Source: Levilactobacillus brevis ATCC 14869 = DSM 20054
GTDB lineage: Bacteria; Bacillota; Bacilli; Lactobacillales; Lactobacillaceae
NCBI RefSeq assembly: GCF_001433855.1
Contig: NZ_AZCP01000002.1
Location: forward strand, 434,001-498,000
DNA: 64,000 bases
Reading direction: 5' to 3'
Both the position numbers and the translations under genes were made by a program. Shown in pieces: positions 32,581-37,785 of the stretch; the stretch's first letter is position 1; each line of letters starts with the position of its first letter. The notes under the pieces were generated by a model. It searched no databases. It had not been told where the DNA came from and worked only from the letters and a program-made list of their open reading frames with translations.

Positions 32581-32691
32581 CAAAAATAAAGAGCTTAAAA
32601 CCAAAGTATCTTCTCAACAAACCTATTGCTAGTTTTGCAAAGAATACTTTGATCTTAAGCCCCATTGCTTTAACGCAACCTCAATGTCGCG
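32581..32691 (-). promoter_or_regulatory. EutV-type dual-hairpin antiterminator and terminator ahead of eutA
   Basis: On the minus strand, hairpin P1 (32674-32691) is CGCGAC-ATTGAG-GTTGCG and P2 (32657-32670) is AAGC-AATGGG-GCTT. Both have six-base loops with A at position 1 and G at position 4, the rule for ANTAR-protein binding. P2 overlaps the 5' arm of a long terminator (about 32591-32663) followed by TTTATTTTTG. P1 contains the eutW stop codon. Binding of phosphorylated EutV should stabilise P1/P2 and let transcription run into eutA. Confidence 0.85.
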
Positions 32692-34120
32692 TCTTTTGAT
32701 CAAATGAAAAACTAATATCCGTCCCTCGTGATGATGATTCAATTTTTAATCGGCCTAATAACTTGTCTTTGACGTAGCTACGTATAATCGTTAAGCCCAA
32801 ACTGCCCGCATGAGTCTGATTCACATCAAATCCCACACCATTATCAGTGACGCGTATTGTAATAATTCCCTGATTAACAATCCCCTCGATAGTAACCTGT
32901 CTCACTCGATTTTCTATCCTAGGGTATGCATGAGAAATCACGTTCTGCAGTAGCTCATTAACAATAATCGATACTGTCACAACTTGTTCACTATCTACTG
33001 TAATCCTTGGGTCAACATTTAAGTTAACAGTTAATTCATGACTATCATCACTCAATTGCTTAAAATGTGCGACTAGTAAATTTAAAGCCGACTGTAAATT
33101 TGTATAATCATCAAGTTGTTTAGACATCAATTCGTATGTTGATGAAATTGCCATAATCCGGCTGATGCTTTCATCTAATGCTTGCTTAGCTTCAATCCCA
33201 TGCAACCTTCGCTGTTGAATCCTCAGTAGCGAAATAACCGATTGTAAATTATTTTTCACGCGATGATTAATCTCTCGGATAGCTACCGACTTAGAAATAA
33301 TCTCGGCTTCTTTACGTTTTATATCCGTCTTATCCTGAATCAAAACGACCAACTGTTGATTTTTTTCATTCCAGAACTTTCGAACTGTAAAAAAGTAATT
33401 CAAATAATTAAAATCCGTTGTAATAGGTCGATGATTGGTTTTTACTTTCTGTAATGCTTTTAAAACATCATGAAAACGTGAACCATCTAAAGATAGATTC
33501 TCATAATCCAAGCCAAGAATGTTACCGATATAACCCACTTTTTTATATAACGCAATTGCCGTACGGTTAGCTAGAATCAGCCGACCAGTTTGATCGAATC
33601 CTAAAATAGCATCCGCCAATTGATCCGTAATAGCACTATCAAAACGTCCAAACATTTTAATTGTGGCCGACACATCGGTGTATCTAGACCGTGTATTTTC
33701 ACTTTGAAAACTTTCTAGAACATCTCGTGAAACGTCTGCCTCAACTATCGTTACGCCAATAGTACGTTCTCCACTAACAATTGGATAAATTTTCTGGCGA
33801 ATTAACCGTTTCTCCTGCGTTTCGGCCAATAATCCTACCGACGTTAACTGCGTTTCTAGTGTGTGAAAAACACCAGGTTCATTGGTCCGTAATGCCGCCT
33901 TTCCAATGACTTTACGTCGATACAATGACAAACCTTCTACCGGCAATTTGTGATAAACAACAACTGCCTGATTATTGAATTCATTACGAACATCAATGAA
34001 CACATCGAAACCGCGATAAGCTCGTGCCTGTTCAATTTGCTTGGTCTGCTCGACTAGAACGTTAATATCAGCCTCACTTAAACTCGTATACTGTTGACAT
34101 AATTCCTCTAACTCGCCCAT
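32681..34120 (-). CDS. eutW: EutW, sensor histidine kinase for ethanolamine
   Basis: A 479-residue soluble kinase. Residues ~1-150 form the N-terminal sensing region, ~165-270 a PAS domain (DAILGFDQTGRLILANRTA), and His287 in REINHRVKNNLQSVISLL is the phospho-acceptor of the HisKA_2 type. The C-terminal ATPase part has NELLQNVISHAYP and VTDNGVGFD. In Enterococcus the homologue senses ethanolamine and phosphorylates EutV. The ATG at 34120 overlaps the eutV stop as TGATG; a TTG one codon earlier is also possible. Confidence 0.92.
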   Translation of the reverse strand: MGELEELCQQYTSLSEADINVLVEQTKQIEQARAYRGFDVFIDVRNEFNNQAVVVYHKLPVEGLSLYRRKVIGKAALRTNEPGVFHTLETQLTSVGLLAETQEKRLIRQKIYPIVSGERTIGVTIVEADVSRDVLESFQSENTRSRYTDVSATIKMFGRFDSAITDQLADAILGFDQTGRLILANRTAIALYKKVGYIGNILGLDYENLSLDGSRFHDVLKALQKVKTNHRPITTDFNYLNYFFTVRKFWNEKNQQLVVLIQDKTDIKRKEAEIISKSVAIREINHRVKNNLQSVISLLRIQQRRLHGIEAKQALDESISRIMAISSTYELMSKQLDDYTNLQSALNLLVAHFKQLSDDSHELTVNLNVDPRITVDSEQVVTVSIIVNELLQNVISHAYPRIENRVRQVTIEGIVNQGIITIRVTDNGVGFDVNQTHAGSLGLTIIRSYVKDKLLGRLKIESSSRGTDISFSFDQKTRH

Positions 34121-34689
34121 CAATCATCCACCACAATCAGCTTCGCAATATCACTCATTGACTGTCGCTTACTCATGCTTAAATTCCGTAACATTTTATA
34201 AGCTGCCTCTTCTGACAAATTATTTTCTTGCATTAATACCCCCTTGGCTCGTTCAATTAGCTTCCGTTGTTCGAGCTTGGTATCCAATGCATTTACTTTA
34301 TCAGTTAGCTGTTGATCACGTTTACCACTGGCTAAGCCAACTTGTATAGTTGTGAGCAAGGACCGCTCTGAGAGTGGCTTTACTAAATAACCAACGGCTC
34401 CTATCTTACTGGCCATATCCGTATCTTCTTCATCACTATATGCTGATAAATAAATAATTGAATGTGTCAGTCGATCCTCTAAGATCTTCTTTCCAGCCTT
34501 CAATCCATCCAACAATGGCATACGAATGTCCATGATCACCAAGTCAGGCTTCTGTTTTTGACAAATTTCAATTGCTTCAAATCCATCTCCACCTTCACCA
34601 ACGACCTCATAACCAGCTTGTTCAACGATATCCCGAATATCCATTCTAGTAATCGGTTCATCATCTATAATCGCAATACGTTCATTCAT
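34120..34689 (-). CDS. eutV: EutV, ANTAR-domain response regulator (RNA-binding antiterminator)
   Basis: A 189-residue regulator. The receiver domain has phospho-acceptor Asp54 (DLVIMDIRMPLLDG). A coiled linker is followed by a C-terminal ANTAR domain (residues ~131-189: LIERAKGVLMQENNLSEEAAYKML..., given here by its key residues ERAKG, LSEEAAY and the basic MSKRQ). Phosphorylated EutV dimers bind two small RNA hairpins and prevent termination. Target leaders are visible ahead of the adenosyltransferase gene, eutG and eutA in this window. Confidence 0.95.
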   Translation of the reverse strand: MNERIAIIDDEPITRMDIRDIVEQAGYEVVGEGGDGFEAIEICQKQKPDLVIMDIRMPLLDGLKAGKKILEDRLTHSIIYLSAYSDEEDTDMASKIGAVGYLVKPLSERSLLTTIQVGLASGKRDQQLTDKVNALDTKLEQRKLIERAKGVLMQENNLSEEAAYKMLRNLSMSKRQSMSDIAKLIVVDD

Positions 34690-34759
34690 GATAAATAACT
34701 CCTTATCCTAATAATTATTCTTCTTACATAGTAGTTAAATATAAAATGAATTACACTGA

Positions 34760-34776
34760 TTATGTGGCTAATTATA
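34760..34776 (-). promoter_or_regulatory. Possible promoter -10 for eutV-eutW
   Basis: TATAAT on the minus strand (34771-34776), about 80 bases before eutV, in the 118-base gap after eutG. There is no good -35 and no dual hairpin here. This would fit a basal, EutV-independent supply of the two-component system. Confidence 0.35.
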
Positions 34777-34807
34777 GATCGGATCGCCGAACAGAATGCA
34801 TACGTTT

Positions 34808-35944
34808 TTAAAAGCTCTCTTCCAAAATTGCTTCAACATCCGCTTGTGTTGGCACTCGCGGATTAGCTGTCGTTGTCCGGTCTTTTAAGGCTGCCTGGGC
34901 AACTGATATCTTTGTTGATTTAAAGACCTGCTCATCAAGCCCATACTCCTGAAAGCTAGCCGGCATATTAAGTCGTTTCCGCAACTGAATTATGGTATTG
35001 ATTAGATTACGCACCGCAATTTTAGGATTAGCCACATTAATACCAATTAATCTCGCCAAATTAGCATATTTAACGGCTGCCCGATTGGGTTTTTCCATCA
35101 CACCTGATGACATATCTGCGTTATAAGCAATGATATGTGGCATCAGAATCGTATTTAAGCGTCCATGTGGTATGTGATATTGAGCGCCTGCAGCATGAGC
35201 GATACCGTGATTCAACCCCAAGTTAACCATGTTAAATGCCATTCCGGCGATGCATGATGCATCATGCATTTTCTGTCTGGCTTCCATGTCTTTACCATTA
35301 TCACTAGCACGTTTGAGATATGTGAAAACCATTTGAAATGCCTTTTCTGCTAATGCGTCTGAAAAATCATTAGCATTGACCGAAACATAAGCTTCCAAAC
35401 AATGAGTTAGTACATCCATTCCTGTATCTACCGTGATGTTTTGCGGCGCGGATTCTACTAAGCTGGCATCGAGCAGTGCAACCTTAGGCAAAATATCATC
35501 TGTTACTAGTGGATATTTAATTCCTTTATCACTGTTGGTAATAACCGCAAAATTTGTCACTTCGGATCCAGTTCCACTAGTCGTTGGAATAGCAATCAAA
35601 TCCAAATCAGTTTCATTCTTAGACATTTTTTTGAGGATGAACTTCATCGCTTTGGTCGCATCAATGGCTGATCCACCACCAACTGCCACTAAAAGGGTGG
35701 CTTTAAACTTCTGTAACTCTTCAATTCCCGTTACAATTTTGGTAATTGGAGGATCCGGTTGAATGTCGGAAAAGATATCAAGCTCATTTTTTTCAGCTAA
35801 ATGATCTGTAATCTTATCAAGGCTTCCCGACTTCACCATAAATGGGTCAGTTACTACAAAGATCCGTCGACCGCTAATACTTTCTAATTCTTCCAATGAA
35901 TCAGCACCCGTCCAGATCTGAGTTTTAAACTGTATTCTCTCCAA
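34808..35944 (-). CDS. eutG: EutG, iron-type alcohol dehydrogenase
   Basis: A 378-residue group III (iron-containing) alcohol dehydrogenase that reduces acetaldehyde to ethanol and regenerates NAD+ for EutE. GGGSAIDATKAM is the cofactor site; metal ligands lie in GMDVLTHCLEAY and LNHGIAHAAGAQYHIPHG. The true start is a TTG at 35944 with AGGAGG eight bases upstream. The longer open frame reaching 36049 runs through a terminator hairpin and is leader RNA, not protein. First gene after the regulatory RNA block. Confidence 0.92.
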   Translation of the reverse strand: MERIQFKTQIWTGADSLEELESISGRRIFVVTDPFMVKSGSLDKITDHLAEKNELDIFSDIQPDPPITKIVTGIEELQKFKATLLVAVGGGSAIDATKAMKFILKKMSKNETDLDLIAIPTTSGTGSEVTNFAVITNSDKGIKYPLVTDDILPKVALLDASLVESAPQNITVDTGMDVLTHCLEAYVSVNANDFSDALAEKAFQMVFTYLKRASDNGKDMEARQKMHDASCIAGMAFNMVNLGLNHGIAHAAGAQYHIPHGRLNTILMPHIIAYNADMSSGVMEKPNRAAVKYANLARLIGINVANPKIAVRNLINTIIQLRKRLNMPASFQEYGLDEQVFKSTKISVAQAALKDRTTTANPRVPTQADVEAILEESF

Positions 35945-35977
35945 TTTTCCAACCTCCTTCACAGCATCATTATAAAT

Positions 35978-36054
35978 AAAAATCAAAAGGTGCTTAAATC
36001 CACACAAATAAAGTGTGAATTTAAGCACCATTGCTTTTATGTACGCCATTGTAC
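35978..36054 (-). promoter_or_regulatory. EutV-type dual-hairpin antiterminator and terminator ahead of eutG
   Basis: P1 (36041-36054) is GTAC-AATGGC-GTAC and P2 (36023-36036) is AAGC-AATGGT-GCTT. Both have six-base loops with A1 and G4, separated by four bases plus flanks. P2 overlaps the 5' arm of a perfect terminator (35989-36029, GGTGCTTAAAT...) followed by TTTTGATTTTTATTT. A clean example of the EutV antitermination element. Confidence 0.9.
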
Positions 36055-36081
36055 GAGAATTTAATTTTTATTTACAAGATA

Positions 36082-36110
36082 AATGTAGCGCTTACATAAG
36101 CGCTTGTCAA
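36082..36110 (-). promoter_or_regulatory. eutG promoter with two cre-like palindromes in the spacer
   Basis: TTGACA (36105-36110), exactly 17 bases, then TACATT (36082-36087) on the minus strand. The spacer is filled by two overlapping AAGCGCTT/TAAGCGCTA palindromes (36084-36096 and 36097-36109), the core of CcpA cre sites. Transcription would start near 36075, just before the antiterminator. Repression by CcpA in the presence of preferred sugars is inferred. Confidence 0.75.
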
Positions 36111-36116
36111 TACTAA

Positions 36117-36350
36117 TAAGAAAAAAGCCGTACTAAAAGTACGGCTAAGTAAACACCATCGTTTACACATACCATGCACGCCTTTGTGCATCTTAATTGA
36201 ACTTAAAGACATTTCGTCTAAACCTCGAGACGAAATGTCGCACAAGCCACTTAATAGAAAGACCTGACTTATAGTAGCTACCTACTAATTACAGTGGCGG
36301 GACCGTACCGGATTCTCACCGGTTTCCATCTATTGAGTACTTCTTATCAA
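36117..36350 (-). ncRNA. EutX/Rli55-like regulatory RNA: B12 riboswitch, EutV-binding dual hairpin, terminator
   Basis: Transcript of about 230 bases read from the minus strand. In order: a cobalamin riboswitch (about 36242-36345), a 12-base-pair hairpin (36208-36239), then two hairpins with hexaloops, ATGCAC-AAAGGC-GTGCAT (36174-36191, A1 and G4 present) and GTAAAC-GATGGT-GTTTAC (36149-36166, G4 present, position 1 is G). It ends in a perfect terminator (36126-36146) with TTTTTTCTT. The dual hairpin does not overlap the terminator, so it should act as a sponge for EutV, not as an antiterminator. In E. faecalis and Listeria such RNAs sequester EutV unless adenosylcobalamin causes early termination. 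By homology of plan, the same is expected here. Confidence 0.8.
36242..36345 (-). promoter_or_regulatory. Cobalamin (B12) riboswitch
   Basis: The conserved core is unmistakable on the minus strand: GAAACCGGTGAGAATCCGG, then ACGGTCCCGCCACTGTAA, a small hairpin TAGTAG-GTAG-CTACTA, and the B12-box-like AAGTCAGGTCTTTC. The hairpin at 36208-36239 just downstream could be the P13 regulatory helix or a weak adenosylcobalamin-dependent terminator (its T-run is only TTTAAGTT). Confidence 0.92.
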
Positions 36351-36356
36351 TTATTA

Positions 36357-36385
36357 GTTGTAGCTTAGCATAGTTTCTAAAACAA
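36357..36385 (-). promoter_or_regulatory. Promoter of the riboswitch RNA
   Basis: TTGTTT (36380-36385), 17 bases, TACAAC (36357-36362) on the minus strand, placed so that transcription starts about five bases before the riboswitch. It lies just past the adenosyltransferase stop. Confidence 0.55.
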
Positions 36386-36394
36386 TACCACCCT

Positions 36395-36955
36395 TTAGTG
36401 AAAAACGGTCTTGCCGTGCTCATAAAAGATTTCAGGCATCTTTAACCGGTAATTGATTACTCGCGCCAATGCATAAAAATAATCTGATAACCGATTGACA
36501 AAAATTAGTAACTCTGGCGGAAGTTTAGTTGACCAATTAAGCGTTACAATTTGCCTTTCTGCTCGCCTCGTGACGGTACGACAAACCTGAAATAAGGCCG
36601 ATGCTTTACTCCCACCTGGTAAAATGAATCGTGAGATCTCCGGCGGCTCATCCTGATAAACATCAATCCTTTTCTCAATCCAATCAATGTATTGCGGATT
36701 AAATCGCATATTATCCCAATTTAATTTAGGATTAGCTAGGTCTGTCCCTAGATCAAACAAACAGTGTTGCAACTGTGTCAGCTCCTTTATCAGAGATAAT
36801 TCCTGAGAATCCAGCTCTGCAATTGCCAATCCCACAAAAGTATTTAATTCATCTAACGTGCCATAGGCCCATACACGATCCGAATCTTTGCTAACCTTTC
36901 CACCATCCACCAACCTTGTTAATCCTTTGTCACCGACGCCTGTATACAATTGCAT
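36395..36955 (-). CDS. PduO-type cob(I)alamin adenosyltransferase
   Basis: A 186-residue ATP:corrinoid adenosyltransferase: YTGVGDKGLTRLVDGGKVSK at the start (ATP site), VCRTVTRRAERQIVTL with the catalytic Arg/Glu pair, and LSDYFYALARVINYR at the end. It makes the adenosylcobalamin used by EutBC. Start at 36955 with AAAGGAGA seven bases upstream; the open frame extending to 37099 is the leader with a terminator in it. Its own EutV-type leader makes it part of the ethanolamine regulon, although it is a separate transcription unit. Confidence 0.92.
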   Translation of the reverse strand: MQLYTGVGDKGLTRLVDGGKVSKDSDRVWAYGTLDELNTFVGLAIAELDSQELSLIKELTQLQHCLFDLGTDLANPKLNWDNMRFNPQYIDWIEKRIDVYQDEPPEISRFILPGGSKASALFQVCRTVTRRAERQIVTLNWSTKLPPELLIFVNRLSDYFYALARVINYRLKMPEIFYEHGKTVFH

Positions 36956-36974
36956 TGAAATTTCTCCTTTCATA

Positions 36975-37050
36975 CAAAAAACAACGCCAAATAATCCACT
37001 CACCAATGAGTGTTTTATTTGGCGCCGTTGCCATACTCTACCGGTAGTAT
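36975..37050 (-). promoter_or_regulatory. EutV-type dual-hairpin antiterminator and terminator ahead of the adenosyltransferase gene
   Basis: P2 (37020-37033) is TGGC-AACGGC-GCCA with A1 and G4. P1 (37033-37050) is ATACT-ACCGGT-AG(AG)TAT, also A1/G4, with a two-base bulge. P2 overlaps the 5' arm of a long terminator (GGCGCCAAATAA...TTATTTGGCG, with an inner CACTCA/TGAGTG) followed by TTGTTTTTTG. Confidence 0.85.
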
Positions 37051-37089
37051 AGCGCTTACATATAATGGATTCAACTACCCCTAAAACAA
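37047..37089 (-). promoter_or_regulatory. Promoter of the adenosyltransferase gene with cre-like site
   Basis: TTGTTT (37084-37089), 18 bases, TTATAT (37060-37065). A cre-like TGTAAGCGCTATAC (37047-37060, 12 of 14 positions) covers the expected start point, which points to catabolite repression. Confidence 0.6.
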
Positions 37090-37095
37090 TTCTAT

Positions 37096-37127
37096 ACAAA
37101 AAAAGGATTGACCAATAGCCAACCCAC
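37096..37127 (-). terminator. Terminator of the glycerol-facilitator gene
   Basis: GGGTTG pairs with CAATCC (one G-T pair) around a nine-base loop, followed by TTTTTTTG on the minus strand. Confidence 0.6.
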
Positions 37128-37134
37128 TTTTAAG

Positions 37135-37785
37135 TTACTCTTCACTACCCATCACACGAGCGACCAAAGCCGCAAGAATCGCACCAACTTCCGGCGCTAG
37201 GATGTACAGCCATAGATGTGATAAGGCACTTCCGCCGGCGAAAATTGCGGGGCCAAATGACCGGGCTGGATTTAAAGAACCGCCAGTCAAGTTCAACGCT
37301 ACAATAATCAGGAAGGCTAGTGTTACCCCAATCGTCAATCCCGCAAAGTCACCATTACCGTGCCGATCACTCGTTACATTTAAAATAACCAGCAAGAATA
37401 GGAAAGTCACCAGTACTTCTACTAAAAAGGCTAATCCCGTCGAAATCTTAGGGAAATCGGTTTGCCCCAATTGGTTAGTCGCTAATCCCAATCCACTTAC
37501 AAATAATTTCATAAAAGCCGAAGCAACTGTCGCTCCCAATACCTGAGCAATCACGTACCCTAACGCATCACGACCATTAATCCGCCGATTCATCAGCATT
37601 GCTGTAGTAACTGCCGGATTAAAATGGCCACCGGAAATTCCACCAAACGCGTACGCAGACACGGTAATCGCTAACCCAAAGGCTAACCCAATCGTTAACG
37701 TATTACCCGCGGCAACGGTCACCGCACCAGTCCCTAAAAAGACCAGCATAAACGTGCCGAAAAATTCGGCTAAGTATTTTTGCAT
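37135..37785 (-). CDS. MIP-family channel (glycerol facilitator/aquaporin, PduF-like)
   Basis: A 216-residue six-TM channel with both NPA boxes: GGHFNPAVT (~residue 60) and GGSLNPARSFGPAIF (~residue 170). The residue after the second box and the short length fit an aquaporin/AqpZ-like or mixed-function channel more than a classical GlpF. Start at 37785, with GGAGG eight bases upstream. It precedes the eut block but has its own terminator and no EutV element, so a link with ethanolamine or diol use is only by position. Confidence 0.85.
   Translation of the reverse strand: MQKYLAEFFGTFMLVFLGTGAVTVAAGNTLTIGLAFGLAITVSAYAFGGISGGHFNPAVTTAMLMNRRINGRDALGYVIAQVLGATVASAFMKLFVSGLGLATNQLGQTDFPKISTGLAFLVEVLVTFLFLLVILNVTSDRHGNGDFAGLTIGVTLAFLIIVALNLTGGSLNPARSFGPAIFAGGSALSHLWLYILAPEVGAILAALVARVMGSEE

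Follow-up and report, generated by a model that had tools for sequence, protein, structure and literature searches.

How can the ethanolamine (eut) genes of Levilactobacillus brevis ATCC 14869 come to depend on two signals at once? Ethanolamine together with AdoCbl (B12) changed 116 genes in this strain, including eutTGVWABC; ethanolamine alone changed 14 genes and AdoCbl alone none, and the authors stated that a "novel mechanism" must exist, EutR being absent (PMC11086012). The main text of that article uses neither the word riboswitch nor the word sRNA.

We analyzed a stretch of 64,000 nucleotides of this genome (contig NZ_AZCP01000002.1, positions 434,001 to 498,000; hereafter the window), in which the genes of eutTGVWABC follow one another as reported in PMC11086012. 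With a probability of about 0.85, we read the segment 36355-36120 on the minus strand, next to the ethanolamine genes, as a trans-acting sponge RNA of the EutX/Rli55 type, and judging from its sequence the element apparently represents a compact form of this type that is common to several lactobacilli.

The eut locus and its EutV elements

The genes and leaders around the candidate element (hereafter EutX) are as follows:

36980..37033, minus strand: EutV-like dual hairpin and conflicting terminator, eutT leader
36395..36955, minus strand: eutT-type cobalamin adenosyltransferase, ATG start at 36955 placed by eye (ORF and domain search)
35989..36054, minus strand: canonical EutV antiterminator/terminator, eutG leader, hairpin 2 overlapping the terminator 36029-35989
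34808..35944, minus strand: eutG, iron-containing alcohol dehydrogenase, start placed by eye at the TTG of 35944 behind GAAGGAGG (ORF and domain search)
34120..34689, minus strand: EutV, response regulator with an ANTAR domain (Pfam, alignment)
32681..34123, minus strand: EutW, sensor histidine kinase (Pfam)
32590..32689, minus strand: canonical EutV element and terminator, eutA leader, hairpins 32689-32657 and terminator from 32663, hairpin 2 overlapping

The EutV-EutW pair carries the Pfam receiver, ANTAR and kinase domains, and EutV of the window aligns end to end (E 7.5e-77) with 6wsh, presumably the E. faecalis protein whose structure is treated in PMC8934654. Ten residues were checked against E. 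faecalis EutV. Eight, to which PMC8934654 gives roles in phosphorylation and RNA contact, are kept (Asp54, Arg142, Lys143, Lys149, Glu160, Tyr164, Arg168 and Met172), the two substitutions being K147R and N173S.

The sequence-only reading of the window had counted three other EutV elements, each conflicting with its own terminator, and these were recovered at the eutG, eutA and eutT leaders. At eutT, where the hairpins span 37033-36997 and the terminator 37029-36980, it is hairpin 1 that is incompatible with the terminator, whose tip contains hairpin 2. Only the EutX pair is free of its terminator among the EutV elements of the locus. The open reading frames called mechanically for eutG (34808-36049) and eutT (36395-37099) begin inside leader hairpins. 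A plasmid search with 34000-37200 returned no match.

Riboswitch aptamer and P13

The 5' part of the element comprises two nested features:

36204..36355, minus strand: AdoCbl (B12) riboswitch aptamer including P13, RF01482, 99.1 bits
36208..36239, minus strand: P13, hairpin of 12 bp, loop CGAGGTTT, with TTTAAGTT behind it, putatively a terminator stabilized by AdoCbl (aptamer model, covariation)

A cobalamin riboswitch had been claimed on the minus strand, and the Rfam search of the window bears this out, with RF01482 matching over its full model (positions 1-149 of 149) at 99.1 bits, above the gathering score of 50, and with an E value of 1.2e-17. This match (36355-36204, minus strand), which lies between the eutT-type gene and eutG, is the single one in the genome. 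The 12-bp hairpin listed earlier as a separate element is present at 36239-36208, but it is P13, the last helix of the RF01482 aptamer. Both sides have changed in 11 of the 12 pairs of P13 among 11 aligned sequences, and in all 11 the first 8 bases behind it include 3-6 T. In the window, the candidate switchable terminator is the 12-bp P13 with TTTAAGTT as its only tail. In folding of the window element the pair probabilities of P13 are at least 0.90, and near 1 without ligand; since P13 folds this strongly without ligand, secondary structure alone does not account for read-through in the absence of AdoCbl. The L5-L13 loop contact is a known link by which the AdoCbl aptamer could stabilize P13.

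Pairing of 36353-36347, at the 5' end of the RNA, with 36200-36194 on the minus strand would possibly give an additional helix that closes the whole riboswitch just upstream of the sponge hairpins. Shuffled sequences scored as high in 6 of 2000 cases, permuted partners did so in 593 of 5000, and some relatives have their best helix at a different place; because the candidate beats the shuffles but not the permutation of partners, this helix is not established.

Hexaloop hairpins and terminator

Downstream of P13 the following features were found:

36174..36191, minus strand: EutV-type hexaloop hairpin 1, loop AAAGGC with A1 and G4 (hairpin scan, folding, alignment)
36149..36166, minus strand: EutV-type hexaloop hairpin 2, loop GATGGT with G1 in place of A1 and G4 kept (hairpin scan, folding, alignment)
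36126..36146, minus strand: intrinsic terminator of EutX, a 9-bp perfect stem followed by TTTTTT, apart from the hexaloop hairpins (terminator scan)

The dual hairpin and the perfect terminator behind it, both described before from the sequence, were found again at these coordinates, hairpin 1 beginning after a gap of 16 nt from P13. Scanning for hairpins no more than 10 apart, with [A/G]NNG loops and perfect stems of at least 5 bp, returned one qualifying pair on both strands of the window, at 36191-36149, and none in 40 dinucleotide shuffles; terminators were found above chance in the window (19 against 8.7 expected, sd 2.8). A chance origin of the element is ruled out by these shuffles (0/40) and by the covariation described below. 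P13, the hexaloop hairpins (at least 0.90 pair probability) and the terminator (0.75-1.0) fold together in one structure, and this joint folding and the coordinates agree with the earlier statement that the pair lies clear of its terminator, unlike the other three EutV elements. We infer from the sequence that riboswitch and hexaloop pair share one transcript, as nothing but P13 lies in between.

Position 4 of the loop is G in all 11 aligned lactobacillus sequences, the window included, for both loops, and position 1 is A in 11/11 for loop 1 and in 10/11 for loop 2. The sole exception is the G of the window, which had been pointed out earlier and proves to be confined to this strain among the 11. 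RNAs mutated at the first loop position bind E. faecalis EutV less well (PMC3369931), and the structural work describes no specific contact of EutV to A1 and a single hexaloop as the minimal target (PMC8934654), so that the G1 of loop 2 may lower EutV binding or may matter little.

Promoters and RNA lengths

Two promoter features frame the element:

36367..36372, minus strand: possible -10 box TATGCT of an EutX promoter, no recognizable -35, near the best site of 7 of 11 relatives (not above chance)
36082..36110, minus strand: eutG promoter of its own, TTGACA-17-TACATT, the spacer containing a cre-like palindrome (promoter scan, 10/12)

The order promoter, riboswitch, hairpins and terminator on the minus strand had been read as a unit; its parts are in place, except that no promoter stands out from chance upstream of the riboswitch in this strain, the best site scoring 9/12 and 27% of 300 shuffles being as good. 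In 7 of the 11 relatives the best site (at least 9 of 13 points) has its -10 at the matching place, and compared with shuffles the promoter reached a value below 0.05 in only 1 of 12 sequences. The EutX RNA could also arise by read-through from eutT. The independent eutG promoter was found again at 36110-36082 (10/12), downstream of the EutX terminator. The promoter scan of the window as a whole did not exceed chance (35 sites against 30.0 expected, sd 6.0).

If transcription starts near 36360, two RNAs of about 160 and 240 nt would be estimated from the sequence, and with an end just past P13 the former estimate of about 110 nt for the short species is replaced by about 160 nt. Palindromic sequences TGTAAGCGCTA, which we presume to be cre-like sites, occur on the minus strand in the spacer of the eutG promoter (36110-36082) and upstream of eutT (37060-37046), and similar palindromes were seen by eye ahead of eutG in several relatives. 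They suggest carbon catabolite control of the eut genes.

A further possibility is that the sponge is degraded or weakened in this strain, with G1 in loop 2 and a poor promoter cutting or abolishing sequestration. The uniqueness of G1 among the 11 sequences, the lack of a -35 at the expected place and the reduced binding of position-1 mutant RNAs (PMC3369931) speak for it, but all stems are intact, loop 1 equals the consensus and L. brevis ATCC 14869 does need AdoCbl for its large response (PMC11086012), and overall we regard such a loss of function as unlikely.

Conservation among lactobacilli

Querying the named genome collection with EutV gave 12 loci, six of which belong to lactobacilli (Levilactobacillus wangkuiensis, L. 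angrenensis, Lentilactobacillus diolivorans, Lentilactobacillus dabitei, Furfurilactobacillus rossiae and Bombilactobacillus mellis), and RF01482 lies upstream of eutV in all six as well as in five more Lactobacillaceae genomes. The compact layout is common to 11 sequences, namely the window and ten lactobacillus relatives, which form the 11 rows of alignment A1. The Lactobacillaceae locus L030 (genome G261) was excluded from A1 because its EutX resembles the longer layout of the f3 loci described below rather than the compact one. In a second alignment, A2, the last row (the EutX of the window) is one base short at its end.

In A1, 97.2% of the cells of the structure are paired and both sides have changed in 22 of the 30 pairs, with compensatory changes in P13, both hexaloop hairpins and the terminator. 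None of 500 shuffles was as high for the paired percentage, both-side changes or the covariation score, and 12 of the 500 reached the number of further pair types, one of five measures; common descent can also lift related sequences above such shuffles. A covariance search across the eut loci of Levilactobacillus had been proposed with the original reading, and a search of the genus with RF01482 matched the 4 of 35 genomes that have EutV.

A model of the element (R1), searched across the family for EutX copies lacking an EutV, with 8 candidates scored per genome, gave at least 85 bits in 9 of 397 genomes; all nine were rows of R1 itself, and all have an EutV match, which is broken in one of them (G295). 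Lower scores were obtained for G261 (36.6 bits) and six other genomes (27-30 bits). In G295 (locus L031) the compact EutX stands beside an eutV frame that matches residues 1-102 only and has an internal stop. In the lactobacillus genome G033 (L029:5830-7520) EutX and the eutG leader are both retained, but about 1.5 kb with a bacteriocin-like gene lies between them. The frame at about 6962 on the minus strand of this interval reads KYYGNGVSC, presumably a class IIa bacteriocin motif, and a small gene follows it.

Co-occurrence with EutV and orientation

EutV and RF01482 were each found in 4 of the 35 genus genomes, and the four are identical. In the family and order samples, RF01482 occurs in 63 of the 64 genomes with EutV (55 plus 9 more from these samples), four family matches of about 1e-21 and 36-40% identity having been excluded as other response regulators. 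By our own reading of the coordinates, RF01482 lies on the same contig within 12 kb of eutV in 60 of the 64. The exceptions are G563, which has no RF01482, G469 and G620, where it is on another contig, and G673, where it is 16 kb away. RF01482 is not specific to eut loci, as 5-6 of the 14 control genomes gave a match too, one of them over the cut-off. The strict hexaloop scan returned no pair in many loci outside the family.

The riboswitch is on the strand opposite to eutV in 9 of the 64 genomes, that is, in all eight g43 genomes, which are probably Streptococcus, and in G691. Both this opposite orientation and the gap of about 1.5 kb in L029 are as expected of a trans-acting RNA. They also bear on the idea of an ordinary cis riboswitch, in which AdoCbl would govern read-through from the riboswitch transcript into eutG. 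This was the first model in E. faecalis too (PMC5821096), and the riboswitch is indeed on the same strand as eutV and upstream of it in the window and in 11/11 lactobacillus relatives, and in the window it comes just before eutG. Against it stand the reversed orientation, the L029 gap and the perfect terminator that precedes a separate eutG promoter and EutV-type leader, and we consider a simple cis arrangement very improbable. Least credible is a fourth antitermination element, in which EutV would control the 36146-36126 terminator and hence read-through into eutG: the dual hairpin is directly upstream of the terminator, and overlap was flagged in 2 of 6 named relatives (L001 and L006, with stems extended, partly into the T tract), but hairpin 2 and the terminator core occupy different columns in 11/11 rows of A1 and fold together in the window, and this non-overlap leaves the idea hardly any weight.

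Proposed mechanism

The EutX/Rli55-type reading made from the sequence is supported by the match in layout, the covariation in 11 sequences, the co-occurrence with EutV and the 8/10 residues kept in EutV. Under this reading, polymerase would pass P13 in the absence of AdoCbl and produce the longer RNA (about 240 nt), which would bind phosphorylated EutV through its two hexaloop hairpins and keep it off the leaders of eutT, eutG and eutA. When AdoCbl is present, the aptamer would stabilize P13 as a terminator and give the RNA of about 160 nt, lacking the EutV site, and EutV would then be free for antitermination at the three leaders. The ethanolamine signal would enter through EutW-EutV, and the eut genes should thus need both ethanolamine and B12. 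For lactobacilli, we infer transcription, RNA lengths, AdoCbl-dependent termination, EutV binding and sequestration from the computational analysis.

A more far-reaching version would give Lactobacillaceae a compact EutX class of their own, with the hairpins right behind P13, a dedicated terminator and an aptamer perhaps closed by an extra 5'-3' helix, in which G1 would make the RNA of this strain mainly a single-hexaloop sponge and reset its B12 need; we consider this doubtful.

Link to the published response and significance

Together, EutVW and EutX offer an explanation for the requirement of ethanolamine plus AdoCbl by the eut genes. Besides these genes, pdu and apf also respond in L. brevis ATCC 14869 (PMC11086012). 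With 150 of 1311 candidates scored in the genome, the strong matches of model R2 were the eutG leader, EutX and the eutA leader, and no strong EutV motif appeared outside the eut locus, the next match (E 0.11) lying inside a long open frame. R2 is not sensitive, since these three sites themselves went into its construction, the divergent eutT leader escapes it and scoring covered 150 of the 1311 candidates. With the pattern AGCAANGRNGCT, 9 matches were obtained in the genome against 13 for its reversed control, and by eye only the eutA and eutG sites had a fitting context. Because pdu and apf respond and no strong EutV motif was seen outside the eut locus, EutX would, as far as seen, not account for the whole response.

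To our knowledge, very few cases of trans-acting riboswitches that titrate a regulator are known. The worked-out examples named in PMC5821096 are from Enterococcus and Listeria. A conserved and covarying EutX in lactobacilli would widen this range, bring food-associated organisms into its study and provide a testable explanation for the joint need of L. brevis ATCC 14869 for ethanolamine and AdoCbl. The RNA-seq reads of this strain are deposited at NCBI under PRJNA1001957 (PMC11086012), and a direct test may thus need no new experiment.

Comparison with known systems

A search for papers describing EutX in lactobacilli found none, though it covered neither of the two primary 2014 papers, nor a 2009 comparative survey and a 2016 review, and absence from print is not thereby proven. 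In the E. faecalis system, as described in PMC5821096, the AdoCbl aptamer of EutX lies between eutT and eutG and ends in a hairpin that AdoCbl stabilizes as a terminator; the 3' end of the short EutX form maps to the aptamer end, and the long form carries an EutV site outside any terminator and sequesters active EutV. The L. brevis element shares with it (DebRoy et al., 2014, via PMC5821096 and PMC8934654) the aptamer between eutT and eutG, the aptamer-final hairpin (here a putative switchable terminator), the terminator-free dual hexaloop and EutVW, and differs from it in that hairpin 1 comes only 16 nt past P13, that a terminator of its own follows and that loop 2 has G1. In the f3 loci L076, L084, L089 and L092, which are probably Enterococcaceae, a long extra hairpin intervenes, and the distance from P13 to the first loop of the pair is about 90-100 nt.

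With Rli55 of Listeria monocytogenes (Mellin et al., 2014, via PMC5821096) the element has in common an AdoCbl riboswitch RNA near eutVW with hexaloops downstream. In most of the g47 loci, probably Listeria, the hexaloops were found about 120-165 nt beyond the aptamer, a longer stretch than in the window. Canonical EutV antiterminators (Ramesh et al., 2012, PMC3369931) likewise have two small hairpins with six-base loops and G4, but they overlap the terminator that they control, whereas the EutX pair of the window stands clear of its own.
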